NCBI GenBank assembly: GCA_016342345.1
Contig: JAEINO010000023.1
Location: forward strand, 1 to 53,615
From: Pseudodesulfovibrio sp.
GTDB taxonomy: Bacteria > Desulfobacterota > Desulfovibrionia > Desulfovibrionales > Desulfovibrionaceae
Direction: 5' to 3'
DNA length: 53,615 bases
Shown: one piece after another, positions 482-38,675 of the stretch
Position numbering within the stretch: position 1 is the first letter of the stretch
Layout of the letters: every line of letters starts with the position of its first letter
The notes under the pieces: model-generated
Told to the model about the DNA's origin: nothing
The model's input: only the letters and a program-made list of their open reading frames with translations
Databases searched by the model: none
Position numbers and translations under genes: made by a program

Positions 482-1990
482 CCCCAGCGTTAAGCCTCCA
501 AAGGCCTAGAAGCTGACAACGTGGAAGAGGCGGCTTTGTGGCCGGGATCAGAAGGGCATTGTTCAAGGGAAACGGTACGAAAAGGCGCAACCTAGACTTT
601 TCATGGGATGGAGCCGACTCGCTTTGATCAGATTCTCAGCCATGGAAGGCAGCGGCCAAGCTAATGCAAGGCCCTTTTTTTCGTCCCTTTTTTTGGGCCA
701 ACAAAAAAACGGACCCCACCGGGAGGGGTGCCTTTAGGCATCTTCTTTTTAATCTTCATTCTTCATCGAAAACAATAAGATAAAGGCTTAATTGAATGCA
801 GCCCCCGGCTGCAATAAAGAATCAACAAAACCTTTCGCACCTCCGGCACGACTTACTTTTGGGCCAAAGCGACAAAAGTAAGCAAAAGTCGCTTTTTTGC
901 GCTGTGATCCTATCCGCGATGGCTAAGAGCCGCTAACACCCTTCACTGTCCTCCAAGATATCCGGGACCCGAACGCTTCCCGGGCTACATTCCGCGTGTC
1001 AACCGGCTCTAAGCCCCTGCTCTCATTGGTCGTCGTTGTAAGAAATGATGAATATGGTGTGCTTGGAATAGATATAAAAACATTGGAACCGCTTGTTTTT
1101 GCTAGCCTTTTAAATTTCGAAATACCAATACAAATTCGTCCCCACCAAGCGTTAGAGCCTCCAAAGGCCTAGAAGCTGACAACGTGGAAGAGGCGGCTTT
1201 GTGGCCGGGATCAGAAGGGCATTGTTCAAGGACAACGGTATGGAAAGGTGCAGCCTAGACCTTTCATGGGATGGAGCCGACCCGCTTTGATCAGATTCTC
1301 AGCCATGGAAGGCAGCGGCAAAGATAGTATAAGGCCCTTTTTTTCGTCCCTTTTTTTGGGCCAACAAAAAAACGGACCCCACCGGGAGGGGTGCCTTTAG
1401 GTATCTTATCTTCTATCTTAATTCTTCATCGAAAACAATAAGATAAAGGCTGAATTGAATGCAGCCCCCGGCTGCAATAAAGAATCAACAAAACCTTTCG
1501 CACCTTCGGCACGACTTACTTTTGGGCCAAAGCGACCAAAAGTAAGCAAAAGTCGCTTTTTTTGCGCTGTGATCCTATCCGCGATGGCTAAGAGCCGCTA
1601 ACACGCTCTGCTGCCCTTCAAGATATTCGAAATTCGAACGCTTTTCGGGCTACATTCCGCGTGTCAACCGGCTCTAAGCCCCTGCTCTCATTGGTCGTCG
1701 TTGTAAGAAATGCTGAATATGGTGTGCTTGGAATAGATATGAAAACATTGGAAGAGCTTTTGTTTTTGCCAGCCTTTTGGATTCCGAAATACCAATGCCA
1801 ATTCGTTTCCCCAAGCGTTAAGCCTTTCAAGACTTAGAAGCTGACAAAGCGGAGGAGGTGGCTCCGGTGGGGTGGCCCGATATGTTTTTTGAATGGGCAT
1901 TGTACGGGGAGGAATAGCCTGGACCTTTCATGGGATGGAGCCGACCCGTTTTGATCAGATTCTAGGCTTGAACGGTCTGCGGCCAAGCTA
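482..1990 (+). repeat. Tandem array of a ~664 bp repeat (copies A, B and partial C)
   Basis: Two full units (about 482-1143 and 1144-1809) and the first ~180 bases of a third (about 1810-1990) lie head to tail. Each begins near AGCGTTAAGCCTCC (486) or its variants (1148, 1814), so the spacing is 662 and 666 bases. The ~180 bp core carries TAGAAGCTGAC, GGCGGCTTTG, CATGGGATGGAGCCGAC and GATCAGATTCT and ends at GCGGC(C)AAG. Units A and B also share a longer tail holding several hairpins, for example CTTACTTTTG...CAAAAGTAAG. Units A and B differ at scattered positions and by small indels, so the duplication is not brand new. The core recurs inverted at 37187-37366 and direct at 38381-38560. Short open frames inside the array are not conserved between units and are not called. 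Confidence 0.9.
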
Positions 1991-2008
1991 GTAAAGGCCG
2001 TTTCTTTG

Positions 2009-2042: not shown

Positions 2043-2146
2043 TCCGCCGGAAGGGCATTTTCAAACTTGGAGCGAGAACCGCAGGTTCGACCGGCTCTCT
2101 TTTCCCTCTTTTCCTTTTATCCCCTATCCTCAAAAAAACAAAAAAA

Positions 2147-2173
2147 GGCCGGGAGGAAATAATCCTCCCGGCC
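2147..2173 (-). terminator. Intrinsic terminator of the leuS operon
   Basis: GGCCGGGAGGA (2147-2157) pairs with TCCTCCCGGCC (2163-2173) around a 5-base loop. On the minus strand the hairpin is followed by a long U-run (the A-tract at 2132-2146 on the given strand). It lies 25 bases beyond the leuS stop. The TTTT on the other side could make it partly bidirectional. Confidence 0.92.
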
Positions 2174-2198
2174 TTTTCAATTTTTTATTTTTGTAGGC

Positions 2199-4700
2199 TT
2201 AGTTCGCCACGATATTCACCAGCTTGTTGGGAATGACAATAACCTTCCGTATCGTCTTTCCATCAGTGTGGGTGGTCACATTTTCCAACCCGAGGGCGAT
2301 CTTCTCAACCTCGTCCTTGGGTGTGTTGTTCGCCACCACAAACTTGCCGCGCATCTTGCCATTGACCTGAACAACCATGGTTACTTCATCCTTGACCAGA
2401 GCGGACTCGTCAAACGTTGGCCATGCTTGCTTGGTCAGGGTGTTGGTATGTCCCAATGCCTGCCATAATTCCTCGCAGACGTGCGGGGTGATGGGTGACA
2501 GCAGGGTCACGGCCGTTGCAATGGCCGAAGACAGAGCCCTCGGGGCAGCGTCCTTGAGTTCATTCTTGAGCGCGTAAATCTCGTTGACCAGCTCCATGAC
2601 CGCCGCAATGACGGTGTTGAACTGGAACTCGTTCTCGATGTCGCGGGTGGCGCGTCGGACCGTGTCATGTTCCTTGAAACGGAGACGTTTGGCTGCATCG
2701 ACCTGAGGATCATTGAAGGAAGTGGGCTGGACTGGTTCCAGAGTATCTTCCAGTCCTTCGATCAGACGCCAGAGGCGACTCAGGAAGCGGAACGCGCCTT
2801 CGAGTCCCTGATCGGACCATTCCAGCTCCTTGATCGGGGGGGAGGCGAAAAGAATGAACAGTCGGGTCGCGTCTGCGCCGAATTCGTTGATCATGGCGTT
2901 GGGATCGACCACGTTGCCCTTGGACTTGGACATCTTGCCGCCGTCCTTCAGAACCATGCCCTGAGTGAGCAGGTTGGCGAAAGGCTCGTCGGTCTTGATG
3001 AACCCGGTGTCGCGCAGGGCTTTTGTAAAGAAGCGGGAGTAGAGCAGATGCAGGATGGCATGCTCTATGCCTCCGATGTACTGGTCAACGTTCATCCAGT
3101 AGTCAGTGGCTTCCGCGCTGAACGGTTCGGTGTCGTTTCTGGGATCGCAATAGCGCATGTAGTACCAGGAGGACTCGAAGAATGTGTCGAAAGTATCGGT
3201 TTCGCGACGGGCAGCCTTGCCGCACTTGGGACAGGTGCAGTTGACGAATTCTTCCATTGCGGGCAGCGGGGATTTGCCATCGGCGCGAACTTGTGCATTT
3301 TCGGGCAGCAGCAGAGGCAGTTGGTCTTCGGGAACCGGCACTGCGCCGCAATCATCGCAATAGATGATCGGGATGGGTGCGCCCCAGAACCGCTGGCGGG
3401 AGACGTTCCAGTCGCGCAGGCGGTAATTGATGGATATTTTGCCCAGTCCTGATTTGTCCAGGTGTTCGACAATGGCCTTTTTGGCAGGCTCGTTCTGCAT
3501 GTTGTCAAAGTCGCCGGAGTTTACCAAAACTCCCGGCGCGGTATAGGCCTCGCCCATTTCGGACTCGTTCAGGATTTCACCCTTGCCGTGCAGGTCCGGT
3601 GGATTGATGACTGTTTTGATAGGCAGGTCATATTTCTTTGCAAATTCGAAGTCGCGCTGGTCGTGGGCAGGGACGGCCATGACTGCGCCGGTTCCATAGC
3701 CCATGAGTACAAAGTTGGCGATGAAGATGGGGATTTCAGCACCGGAAAGCGGGTTGATGCAGTATTTTCCGGTGAAGATGCCCTGTTTTTCGAGATCATC
3801 GGCACCGCGCTTGATGCGGTCCATGTTCTTGATGTTGGTAACAAAGGCGTCAATTTCAGCCTTGTTGTCAGCATCGGCGGTCAGTGCTTCGACCATGGGA
3901 TGTTCTGCGGCCACGGACATGAAAGTCGCGCCGAACAAGGTGTCCGGGCGGGTGGTGAAGACCGTGATGGTCTCGTCCATGTCCTTGACCTGAAAGGTCA
4001 GTTCCGCACCGTAGCTCTTGCCGATCCAGTTGCGCTGCATGGTCAGCACTCGCTCGGGCCAGCCTCCGTCCATGGTCTTGAGATCGTTCAGGAGTTCGTC
4101 GGCGTAATCGGTGATGCGCAGGAACCACTGCTCCATGTCCTTCTGCTCGACTTCGGATTCGCAACGCCAGCACAGGCCGTCCTCGACCTGTTCGTTGGCA
4201 AGGACCGTGTTGCAGCTCGGGCACCAGTTCTGGGGGGAGTGCTTACGGTAGGCAAGGCCTTTTTCAAGGAATTTCAGGAAGAATTTCTGTTCCCACTTGT
4301 AATATTCCGGGCGGCAGGTGGCCAGTTCGCGACGCCAGTCGTAGGAATAGCCCATGCGCTGGAGCTGCTCGCGCATCTCGGCGATATTCTGATAGGTCCA
4401 TTTGGCCGGATGGGTCTTGTTCTTGATGGCCGCATTTTCGGCGGGCAGGCCAAAGGAATCCCAGCCCATGGGGTGCAGGACGTTGAAGCCCTGCATGGTC
4501 TTGAAGCGGGCAACCACATCGCCGATGGAGTAGTTGCGTATATGCCCCATGTGGATTTTCCCAGATGGGTAGGGAAACATTTCGAGCACATAGTATTTTG
4601 GCTTGGACGGGTCTACTTCGACCTCGAAGCAGCCGGAGTCCTTCCAGACTTTCTGCCACTTTAATTCAACTTCTTCTGGAATATATTTGCCTAAGGCCAT
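2199..4700 (-). CDS. leuS: Leucyl-tRNA synthetase
   Basis: This class I aminoacyl-tRNA synthetase charges tRNA-Leu with leucine in the cytoplasm. The 833-residue product has the usual bacterial length. The HIGH-type signature is HMGH at residues 50-53 within PYPSGKIHMGHIRNYS. The KMSKS loop (GGKMSKSKGN) is near residue 590. The middle third holds the CP1 editing insertion, and zinc-type Cys pairs (NWCPSC, CWRC) are visible. The frame remains open another 49 codons upstream, but that stretch lies within nusB in another frame; the ATG at 4700 (MALGKYIPEE) matches the family start. It is the last gene of the minus-strand unit, 22 bases after nusB, and is followed by a strong terminator. Confidence 0.98.
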   Translation of the reverse strand: MALGKYIPEEVELKWQKVWKDSGCFEVEVDPSKPKYYVLEMFPYPSGKIHMGHIRNYSIGDVVARFKTMQGFNVLHPMGWDSFGLPAENAAIKNKTHPAKWTYQNIAEMREQLQRMGYSYDWRRELATCRPEYYKWEQKFFLKFLEKGLAYRKHSPQNWCPSCNTVLANEQVEDGLCWRCESEVEQKDMEQWFLRITDYADELLNDLKTMDGGWPERVLTMQRNWIGKSYGAELTFQVKDMDETITVFTTRPDTLFGATFMSVAAEHPMVEALTADADNKAEIDAFVTNIKNMDRIKRGADDLEKQGIFTGKYCINPLSGAEIPIFIANFVLMGYGTGAVMAVPAHDQRDFEFAKKYDLPIKTVINPPDLHGKGEILNESEMGEAYTAPGVLVNSGDFDNMQNEPAKKAIVEHLDKSGLGKISINYRLRDWNVSRQRFWGAPIPIIYCDDCGAVPVPEDQLPLLLPENAQVRADGKSPLPAMEEFVNCTCPKCGKAARRETDTFDTFFESSWYYMRYCDPRNDTEPFSAEATDYWMNVDQYIGGIEHAILHLLYSRFFTKALRDTGFIKTDEPFANLLTQGMVLKDGGKMSKSKGNVVDPNAMINEFGADATRLFILFASPPIKELEWSDQGLEGAFRFLSRLWRLIEGLEDTLEPVQPTSFNDPQVDAAKRLRFKEHDTVRRATRDIENEFQFNTVIAAVMELVNEIYALKNELKDAAPRALSSAIATAVTLLSPITPHVCEELWQALGHTNTLTKQAWPTFDESALVKDEVTMVVQVNGKMRGKFVVANNTPKDEVEKIALGLENVTTHTDGKTIRKVIVIPNKLVNIVAN

Positions 4701-37071: not shown

Positions 37072-37366
37072 GTAGCGCATTCGCGGTGGATGTTCTGTCG
37101 GGCGCGTTTTGCAGTGTCTCGCTTTTACAGCGACTTGCTTTTTGTCCGAAGCCACAAAAAGGAAGCAAAAAGGGCTTTCAGGAACGAGCTTGGCCGCTGC
37201 CTCCATGACCAAGAATCTGATCTAAGCGGGTCGGCTCCATCCCATGAAAAGTCTGGATCGCACCTCCCCAAATATTCATCCATTAACAACGCGCTTCTGT
37301 CCCCCGCACCAAAGCCGCCTCCTCCGCTTAGTCAGCTTCTAGGCCATCGGAGGCTTAACGCTGGGG
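37072..37366 (-). repeat. Left arm of a ~300 bp inverted repeat (copy D of the repeat family)
   Basis: Read on the minus strand, this block starts CCCCAGCGTTAAGCCTCC (37366 downward) and ends ACCGCGAATGCGCTAC (37072). The ~180 bp core (37187-37366) is the same family as 482-1990. The ~75 bases next to it, including TGGCTTCGGACAAAAAGC and CGCTGTAAAAGCG, are nearly identical to the right arm. The last 16 bases are identical in both arms, with a divergent patch of ~35 bases before them. By eye the core differs from the right arm at roughly 25 of 180 positions. Confidence 0.92.
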
Positions 37367-37430
37367 AGGATATAATTATTGTTTCAATTATATAAGGTGA
37401 CTTAAAAATTATTAAAGAGGAGGAGATCAT

Positions 37431-38297
37431 ATGTATATGAAAAGATATTTCCCCCCTGTCTTTTTATCCTTTGGTTTTGTGCTTATCGCTGTTTTAATAA
37501 AAATAAATACATCTAATCTTGCCGAAGCAGTTAAGTTGGCTGATTATGTGGGAGGCGTTGTTGGGGCGATCGCCTTAATATGGCTTGTATTCGGTTATTT
37601 ACAGCAAAATAAATCCCTTGATGCTCAACTTATAGGGCTAGAGCAACAACAAGAAAATTTAAAGCTACAAAAAGATGAATTGGAATTATATAAAGATGAG
37701 TTGCGTTTGCAAACTGAAGAACTACGTAAGATTGGTTCCTTTTCCGCGTTAGGGCAAATAAGACTGATTGCAGATAATTTGCTAAATGAAATTAAGGTGT
37801 ATTATGGCGGTAATGACCCACTAAACCCAGTTTTTTTGGCGAATCATGACTTGGAAATTATCTGTAACTCAGTTGAGCCAAAAGAAGTCTCTGAGTCAGC
37901 TCAAAGATGGCTGATTGATTATGGTTTAGCTGAACAAGTACTTAGTACATTAAAGATGTGTTCAGAAATGTATTTTGATGTGTCCGGGATAGAATATGAG
38001 CGTTGTTCTGGGACTGATGGCCATTTTATGGAGTTGAACAAAGAGAAAATATCTAAAATTCCACATTTGAAGGGTCTGTATTCAAAGGCTTATGCAGTTA
38101 AAGATACCGTTGACCGTTTTGAACCGGCATACCATGTTGCGATGTTAGCGTGGTTAACTAGTGGAAGAATGAAAACAAGAAATAGTTTATTTGTTCAAGG
38201 GGCGGAGAATGAGCATTTGAAGGCCCTTGAAGGAAGGGAAGAAGCTATACCAAAAATATACCATCACTATATAAAAAATAATAAAGATAAGAATTAG
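37431..38297 (+). CDS. AT-rich gene for a two-TM, coiled-coil protein of unknown function
   Basis: This 288-residue protein has two membrane segments at the N terminus (about 9-25 and 40-58), then a coiled coil of Gln/Glu/Leu/Lys heptads (about 60-98, EQQQENLKLQKDELELYKDE). A cytoplasmic helical domain of ~190 residues follows. The layout recalls DUF4760-type and phage-abortive-infection-type membrane proteins, but I recognise no diagnostic motif, so function is open. A strong site (AGGAGG) precedes the ATG. The gene is strikingly AT-rich with rare codons compared with its neighbours, which indicates recent transfer. It lies alone between two inverted ~300 bp repeats and two convergent operons. 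A weak hairpin overlaps its stop codon (38292-38315). Confidence 0.85.
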   Translation: MYMKRYFPPVFLSFGFVLIAVLIKINTSNLAEAVKLADYVGGVVGAIALIWLVFGYLQQNKSLDAQLIGLEQQQENLKLQKDELELYKDELRLQTEELRKIGSFSALGQIRLIADNLLNEIKVYYGGNDPLNPVFLANHDLEIICNSVEPKEVSESAQRWLIDYGLAEQVLSTLKMCSEMYFDVSGIEYERCSGTDGHFMELNKEKISKIPHLKGLYSKAYAVKDTVDRFEPAYHVAMLAWLTSGRMKTRNSLFVQGAENEHLKALEGREEAIPKIYHHYIKNNKDKN

Positions 38298-38380
38298 GGA
38301 ATACCATACCTAATTATTTAACGAGTGCCTATCTTGCATTTGAAACCTGCAAATTTGTATATTTTTTTATTAACCCTTAA

Positions 38381-38675
38381 CCCCAGCATCAAGCCTCCTA
38401 AGTCTTAGAAGCTGACCAAGCGGGGGAGGCGGCTTTGGTGTGGGGATTGGAAGCGCGTTGTCAATGGATGAATGTTTGGAGAGGTGAGAACTAGACTTTT
38501 CATGGGATGGAGCCGATCCGGTTGGATCAGATTCTTAGTCGTGGAGGAAGCGGCCAAGCTCGTTCCTGAAAGCCTTTTTTGCTTCCTTTTTGTGGCTTCG
38601 GACAAAAAGCAAGTCGCTGTAAAAGCGAAACACGTACAATGGGTTACGACTGCATCATCACCGCGAATGCGCTAC
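38381..38675 (+). repeat. Right arm of a ~300 bp inverted repeat (copy E of the repeat family)
   Basis: The block starts CCCCAGCATCAAGCCTCC and ends ACCGCGAATGCGCTAC, mirroring the left arm at 37072-37366. The core is 38381-38560. The outer end overlaps the last codon positions of the convergent radical SAM gene: its TAG stop (38672-38674) lies inside the shared GCGCTAC. No clear target-site duplication flanks the two arms. Confidence 0.92.

Follow-up and report, generated by a model that had tools for sequence, protein, structure and literature searches.

A probable cassette site downstream of glyA in Pseudodesulfovibrio, with resident inverted repeats and exchanged cargo

How does a single foreign-looking gene come to stand between two long inverted repeats in a gap between housekeeping genes, and what is it that moves, the whole block or only the gene? 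The question is raised by positions 37072-38675 of a Pseudodesulfovibrio sp. contig, of which 53,615 nt were analysed (hereafter the window). On its left lies a gene that we take to be glyA, and on its right a convergent gene, presumably of radical-SAM type, followed by what we take to be ftsZ, ftsA and ftsQ. We consider it probable that the window contains a loaded cassette site, in which the arms are resident and the cargo is exchanged. The block is made up as follows.

37072-37088, minus strand: left outer end, 17 nt, GTAGCGC..., perfect inverted match to 38659-38675
37089-37179, minus strand: left outer D module, a poly-A/T palindrome, like a module in the arms of genome G029
37180-37366, minus strand: left core, a palindromic element of ~190 nt; inner edge 37366; R1 match 167.5 bits
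37367-38380, no strand: loop, i.e., the cargo space; 1014 nt, G+C 0.349
37431-38297, plus strand: cargo gene, 288 aa; predicted hydrophobic N-terminal helices, coiled coil, helical remainder
38381-38567, plus strand: right core; inner edge 38381; R1 match 173.1 bits
38568-38658, plus strand: right outer D module
38659-38675, plus strand: right outer end, 17 nt; its CTA is the stop codon of the convergent radical-SAM-type gene

Read from the gene outwards, each arm thus consists of a core of ~190 nt, a D module (our name for the poly-A/T palindrome outside the core) and a perfect 17-nt outer end. The outer ends (37072-37088 and 38659-38675) are 100% complementary over 17 nt, so that the initial annotation was right about their identity and one base short in giving 16. 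The segments 37114-37366 and 38381-38633 are 89% complementary over 253 nt, and the full arms of 295 nt are 87% identical with an E-value of 8.5e-96, because of which their likeness cannot be ascribed to chance. The stop codon supplied by the right outer end lies at 38672-38674; the OLD cargo ORF of locus L317 likewise terminates within a core. The 288-aa ORF at 37431-38297 is by far the longest in the block and the only one of at least 60 aa lying entirely between the cores, and the G+C content of the loop is 0.349 versus 0.557 in the flanks, as expected from the earlier description of a lone AT-rich gene between long inverted repeats. No recombinase-like ORF was seen in the ORF list of the block, in agreement with the reported absence of a transposase or integrase.

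The gene looks foreign, as had been proposed, and is sporadic: among the 36 genomes of the genus its product was found in one, its own. A sample of 395 genomes of the phylum yielded two matches, its own genome and a weak one (E 4.7e-4), and no homologues were found among plasmids, phages and viral contigs. None of the Pfam, PADLOC, NCBIfam and PDB families gave a match reaching the cut-off; in Pfam no domain stood above it (inspected to E 1), and DUF4760, for which a search had been recommended, was not found. The best NCBIfam matches, SLATT_5 (E 0.04) and NapC (E 0.008), were both far below the cut-off, and a match to phrog_9267 (E 1.1e-5) covered residues 24-91 only. The weak PHROG and SLATT matches fall into the N-terminal part, about the first 97 residues, and only there does the single-sequence structure prediction (pLDDT 46) exceed a pLDDT of 50. 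This low-confidence model suggests a protein that begins with hydrophobic helices, continues in a coiled coil and is helical in the rest. We regard the protein as a rather likely, still putative, membrane-anchored defence effector, a role that is suggested by its company and not by the protein itself.

The repeats that bracket the gene are real, but they are not private to the block. A covariance model built from 39 cores detected the palindromic core of ~190 nt in 27 of the 36 Pseudodesulfovibrio genomes; G019 contributes 69 matches, G001 59 and the window's own draft genome (G000) 43. Three of the latter lie at 482-1996 of the window itself:

482-669, plus strand: core, first of the tandem array
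1144-1332, plus strand: core, second of the tandem array
1810-1996, plus strand: core, third of the tandem array

At 482-2030 these tandem cores are spaced 654-666 nt apart, with AT-rich spacers and, by eye, a divergent inverted partner element; the array probably represents empty forms of the same element. The right arm used as a query found 38 matches in its own genome, many of them arranged in tandem at intervals of about 660 nt. Beyond the genus the core is all but absent: under stricter filters 24 of 247 genomes sampled across the class were positive, all Pseudodesulfovibrio (one of 50 genera), and a DNA pattern for the long core retrieved 60 stretches from a collection of 84,980 species, 59 from Pseudodesulfovibrio and one from Desulfovibrionaceae bacterium MIC098Bin4. 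The arms were not found in viral, phage and plasmid collections, one of these searches being an exact pattern for the long core form, and a phage or plasmid vehicle was rejected on these grounds. In literature listings and the opening parts of abstracts, a scope outside which preprints and most subscription papers fall, no description of the core element was found. Draft contigs of L089 and L090 (G021) and of L044/L385 (G000 C69) start in core or D-module arrays; such repeats may break short-read assemblies and thereby hide cassettes.

The core appears to be folded. In the predicted stem CTGACCAA pairs with TTGG-A-TCAG, the A being bulged, and one stem pair is C-G in 22, A-U in 16 and U-A in one of the 39 cores. 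Over 12 stem pairs, 96.8% of the cells are paired and 22 cells have changed on both sides, versus at most 4 in slid controls and a mean of 7.4 in shuffled ones. This suggests that the folded core, as DNA or RNA, is or was selected, with the reservation that kinship of the copies can inflate counts of paired changes.

Cores occur preferentially as inverted pairs. Among adjacent cores less than 4 kb apart in G019 (64 of the 69 matches entered), 18 of 20 were oriented '-+', none '+-' and two '++', a bias with a probability of 1.6e-9 if the four orientations were equally likely. Empty inverted pairs were found 23 times in G001 (spacers 95-111 nt), five times in G018 (65-67 nt) and once in G005 (155 nt). 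Loaded pairs numbered 35 in 12 genomes, with loops of 427-2355 nt that in most cases carry one to three ORFs (L205a only a 60-aa ORF). Wherever the flank was long enough for comparison, i.e., in 34 loaded pairs, the G+C content of the loop was below that of the flank (34/34; medians 0.372 vs 0.548). Not included in the 35 are L319, L323, L324 and L325, whose cores lie 3-5 kb apart around DNA of G+C 0.57-0.63, near that of the flanks, and were read as unrelated neighbours; L207, with housekeeping genes between cores 8.8 kb apart; the empty pairs L206 and L223; and L081 and L222, AT-rich with a weak or missing partner core. Weak but retained are L080, whose right core (42 bits) stands at a contig end; L083, with an interrupted right core; L217, whose left core is truncated by a contig end; L127, with a left core of 34 bits; L367, where no left core was detected and the left boundary was set by hand; and L205a. 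Among the ORFs listed for the 35 loops no transposase or recombinase was seen. In G004, three copies of one gene, which we take to be of the IS110 family, stand near arms (L320:544-1611, L127:769-1737, L127:5677-6741), in a sample biased towards loci chosen for arms or glyA; in the two copies whose edges were inspected the element lies inside a D module, as if the palindrome were its target.

Besides being AT-rich, the loops often contain genes from families of phage defence. PADLOC was applied to 28 of the 35 cassettes (all except L086, L186, L189, L190, L191, L205a and L205b), and 12 of the 28 gave a match at E<=1e-5, so that the cargo of the arm family is indeed rich in defence matches, as the initial annotation had guessed for its gene; 16, including the window gene, gave none. 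Among ten flanking genes used as a control one matched, by a model of the sigma-54 activator type. Some PADLOC models are general (AAA ATPases, kinases), and single matches can mislead. The matches by PADLOC are:

L076 and L317: OLD/GajA-like
L078: TIR PDC-S35
L082: PDC-S31/DUF2971
L083: protein kinase near PD-T4-6, plus a PP2C gene
L127: TcmP/PDC-M30A
L187: PDC-S06
L194: anti-phage dCTP deaminase, frame-split
L320: AbiU/AIPR
L322: M78 peptidase near capP/RmrA
L366: dGTPase
L367: NsnA/PD-T4-2_A, plus a HEPN gene

The dCTP deaminase cargo, at L194:2842-4429 of the metagenome bin G019, is broken across two frames. Six further cassettes (L185, L217, L080, L188, L193 and L192) encode HEPN, Mrr or DUF5677 domains above the Pfam cut-off, and the remaining 10 of the 28, the window gene among them, have neither a PADLOC match nor one of these domains. 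DUF3800 (L321) and DUF805 (L186, outside the PADLOC scan) were not counted as defence. For about 15 of the 35 loops no domain scored above the cut-off, in scans that differed between loops in the libraries covered; examples are the window protein, L075, L077, L189, L190, L195, L316 and L318.

The position downstream of glyA had been proposed to be an insertion hot spot, and the comparison of genomes agrees with this. glyA was identified at E<=1e-100 in 35 of the 36 genomes, and 34 sites were read besides the window. The distance from glyA to the radical-SAM-type gene ranges between 105 and 3,895 nt among the gaps listed, that is, at the 22 of 34 sites where the latter gene is within reach. At three of the 34 sites, as in the window, cores were found, and each of these four places has its own cargo: G000 the window gene, G019 a TIR gene, G029 a 490-aa gene, and G004 a TcmP gene plus a gene matching rSAM_mob_pairA (in G019 and G004 the radical-SAM gene is outside the stretch read; G019, G029 and G035 are metagenome bins). 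On the left, the homology between G000 and G029 (70% over 471 nt) begins at the end of glyA, crosses the left outer end and reaches into the first left core; on the right (75% over 1,244 nt) it leads from the right core past the right outer end and enters the radical-SAM gene. The outermost arms of the two genomes thus correspond in position, as far as the alignments tell, and their cargo differs. Two extra left-hand cores and ~1.6 kb precede the cargo in G029, and the match to the window therefore concerns the outermost arms only. Many of the gaps listed hold accessory genes without detected cores, and the glyA gap is therefore open to other traffic as well. Such a case is a pair in G017 labelled by eye as TcmP/DUF5131-like, near which cores were not detected. 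Downstream of glyA, L132 (G015) and L147 (G026) contain genes that we take to be HipA-like, without detected cores nearby; the one in G015 lies inside the glyA/radical-SAM gap.

A second site allows close relatives to be compared. Its conserved flank is present in 36 of 36 genomes, and 23 regions were read. In six genomes AT-rich cargo lies beside this flank with a core between them: a 590-aa gene without family match in G034, OLD in G024, a dGTPase in G035, an NsnA-like gene plus HEPN in G025, a 410-aa gene in G028, and a kinase plus phosphatase in G019. Three cargos point one way and three the other. Both flanks were confirmed in G034, G024 and G035; for G025, G028 and G019 the shared flank is the right one, and the right core was the only one detected in G025. 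Over 1,099 nt of right flank, identity is 98.9% between G024 and G035 and 94.9% between G034 and G024, the latter two also sharing 93% over 517 nt on the left; no similarity among the six loops was found by blastn, tblastx or tblastn. Homology begins at the inner edge (CAGC) of the right core. Within this core, differences are denser in the innermost 38 nt than in the next 190 nt: 6 vs 5 for G024/G035 (p 0.004), 4 vs 2 for G034/G024 (p 0.008) and 4 vs 7 for G034/G035 (p 0.09). The left cores match to ~10 nt from the inner edge. The simplest reading of these alignments is that site and arms would have been passed on together and that recombination, at the inner core edges or just inside them, would have replaced the loop. 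Near the second site in G012, L373 contains an ORF (2071-4398, 775 aa, G+C 0.37) whose N-terminus we take to be SIR2-like; cores were not detected there.

Arms that apparently stay while cargo is swapped modify the earlier idea that 37072-38675 comes and goes as a unit, which fits neither the matching outermost arms of G000 and G029 nor the constant arms and changing loops of the second site. A non-autonomous transposon, i.e., a mobile insertion cassette or MITE moved in one piece by a transposase encoded elsewhere that recognises the 17-nt ends, is therefore unlikely in our view. The perfection of the outer inverted repeats and the numerous copies, dispersed and in tandem, would be expected of such an element; moreover, in G000 the outer arm part (query 216-295) has no other match and is found in the window block alone, which would suit arrival of the whole block. 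Against it stand, besides the arms that correspond around different cargo at both sites, the D modules, which vary among cassettes while the cores agree, the absence of a target duplication visible by eye at the ends of the window block or of G029, and the 35 loops with no transposase among their listed ORFs. Similarity of arms between genomes could also stem from gene conversion between copies. That imported DNA simply recombined at any conserved flank, such as glyA or the radical-SAM gene, as at other defence hot spots, with the repeats as bystanders, is quite improbable: the variable glyA gaps, many with accessory genes and no detected cores among those listed, speak for it, but the loops of core pairs are AT-rich in 34 of 34 cases, and at the second site the homology between close relatives ends at the inner core edges and not in genes. 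Least probable of all, to the point of being barely credible, are cores that act as structured RNAs of a multi-gene defence or regulatory system, with the bracketed gene as partner and no mobility. Paired changes in the stem would be consistent with this, but a single core family brackets unrelated genes as well as short empty spacers, close relatives differ in cargo, and the arms matched no Rfam family at gathering score and gave no credible weak match.

In the preferred reading, that of resident arms with exchanged cargo, a palindromic repeat of two inverted ~190-nt cores plus outer D modules would occupy the gap from glyA to the radical-SAM-type gene, the loop enclosed by the cores would receive the acquired gene, and recombination within the paired cores or at their edge might exchange the cargo. 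We estimate that a recombinase acting in trans and reading the folded core has an even chance of being responsible; it is favoured because the core stem is conserved by paired changes. Ordinary homologous recombination with imported DNA could likewise make use of the homology common to the cores, and to it we give somewhat less than an even chance. Taken as a general system, and tentatively, at odds only slightly below even, Pseudodesulfovibrio might possess its own form of cassette exchange, in which inverted pairs of folded cores, empty in intergenic gaps, are the landing sites and a putative recombinase swaps single-gene defence modules in either orientation, integron-like in effect but with unrelated sites.

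Integron cassettes are single-gene units with folded sites that carry a bulged base, with exchange of contents and with tandem arrays, and the elements described here are alike in all these respects. They differ in that core sites are paired and inverted around the cargo, whereas integron sites are in direct orientation, one per gene; 18 of the 20 adjacent core pairs of G019 are inverted. The attC boxes are R' GTTRRRY and R'' RYYYAAC; in the core alignment, inspected by eye, a GTTAAGC-like motif was present in some cores only and a matching outer box was not found. The GTAG of the outer end is the REP tetranucleotide. Intergenic palindromes in alternating orientation are likewise shared with REP/BIME elements and their RAYT transposases (cf. 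PMC2817692), compared with which the core is much longer. A Y1 transposase was matched in 17 of the 36 genomes, 13 of them core-bearing, and 14 of the 27 core-bearing genomes had no match, among them G019 with 69 core matches and G001 with 59; RAYT/IS200 was rejected as the mover for genomes without a Y1 transposase. Mobile insertion cassettes and MITEs with passenger genes (cf. PMC3913671; PMC10969869) resemble the block in having a passenger gene between inverted repeats without a transposase inside, and differ in that the arms here are long palindromic cores that apparently stay while the cargo changes. Terminal inverted repeats are present in the window block; a target-site duplication was not seen by eye at the two sites inspected, the window and G029, and no partner IS or autonomous element with the same ends was noticed in the loci read. 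With Tn7-like transposon cargo and chromosomal defence hot spots (cf. PMC8649781) the sites share diverse defence genes at fixed places, and different defence-family genes indeed occupy one conserved place both downstream of glyA and at the second site; the difference is that the boundary here is a core pair, and no Tns-type gene was noticed among the listed loop ORFs.

Should the exchange be real, it would show how single defence genes are replaced at fixed positions with neither a transposon nor a phage involved, a question that many 'solitary' defence genes still pose. Core pairs are, moreover, a simple handle, since a gene between two cores is a candidate defence gene, and the ~15 loops without a domain match constitute a ready list of such candidates in Pseudodesulfovibrio.
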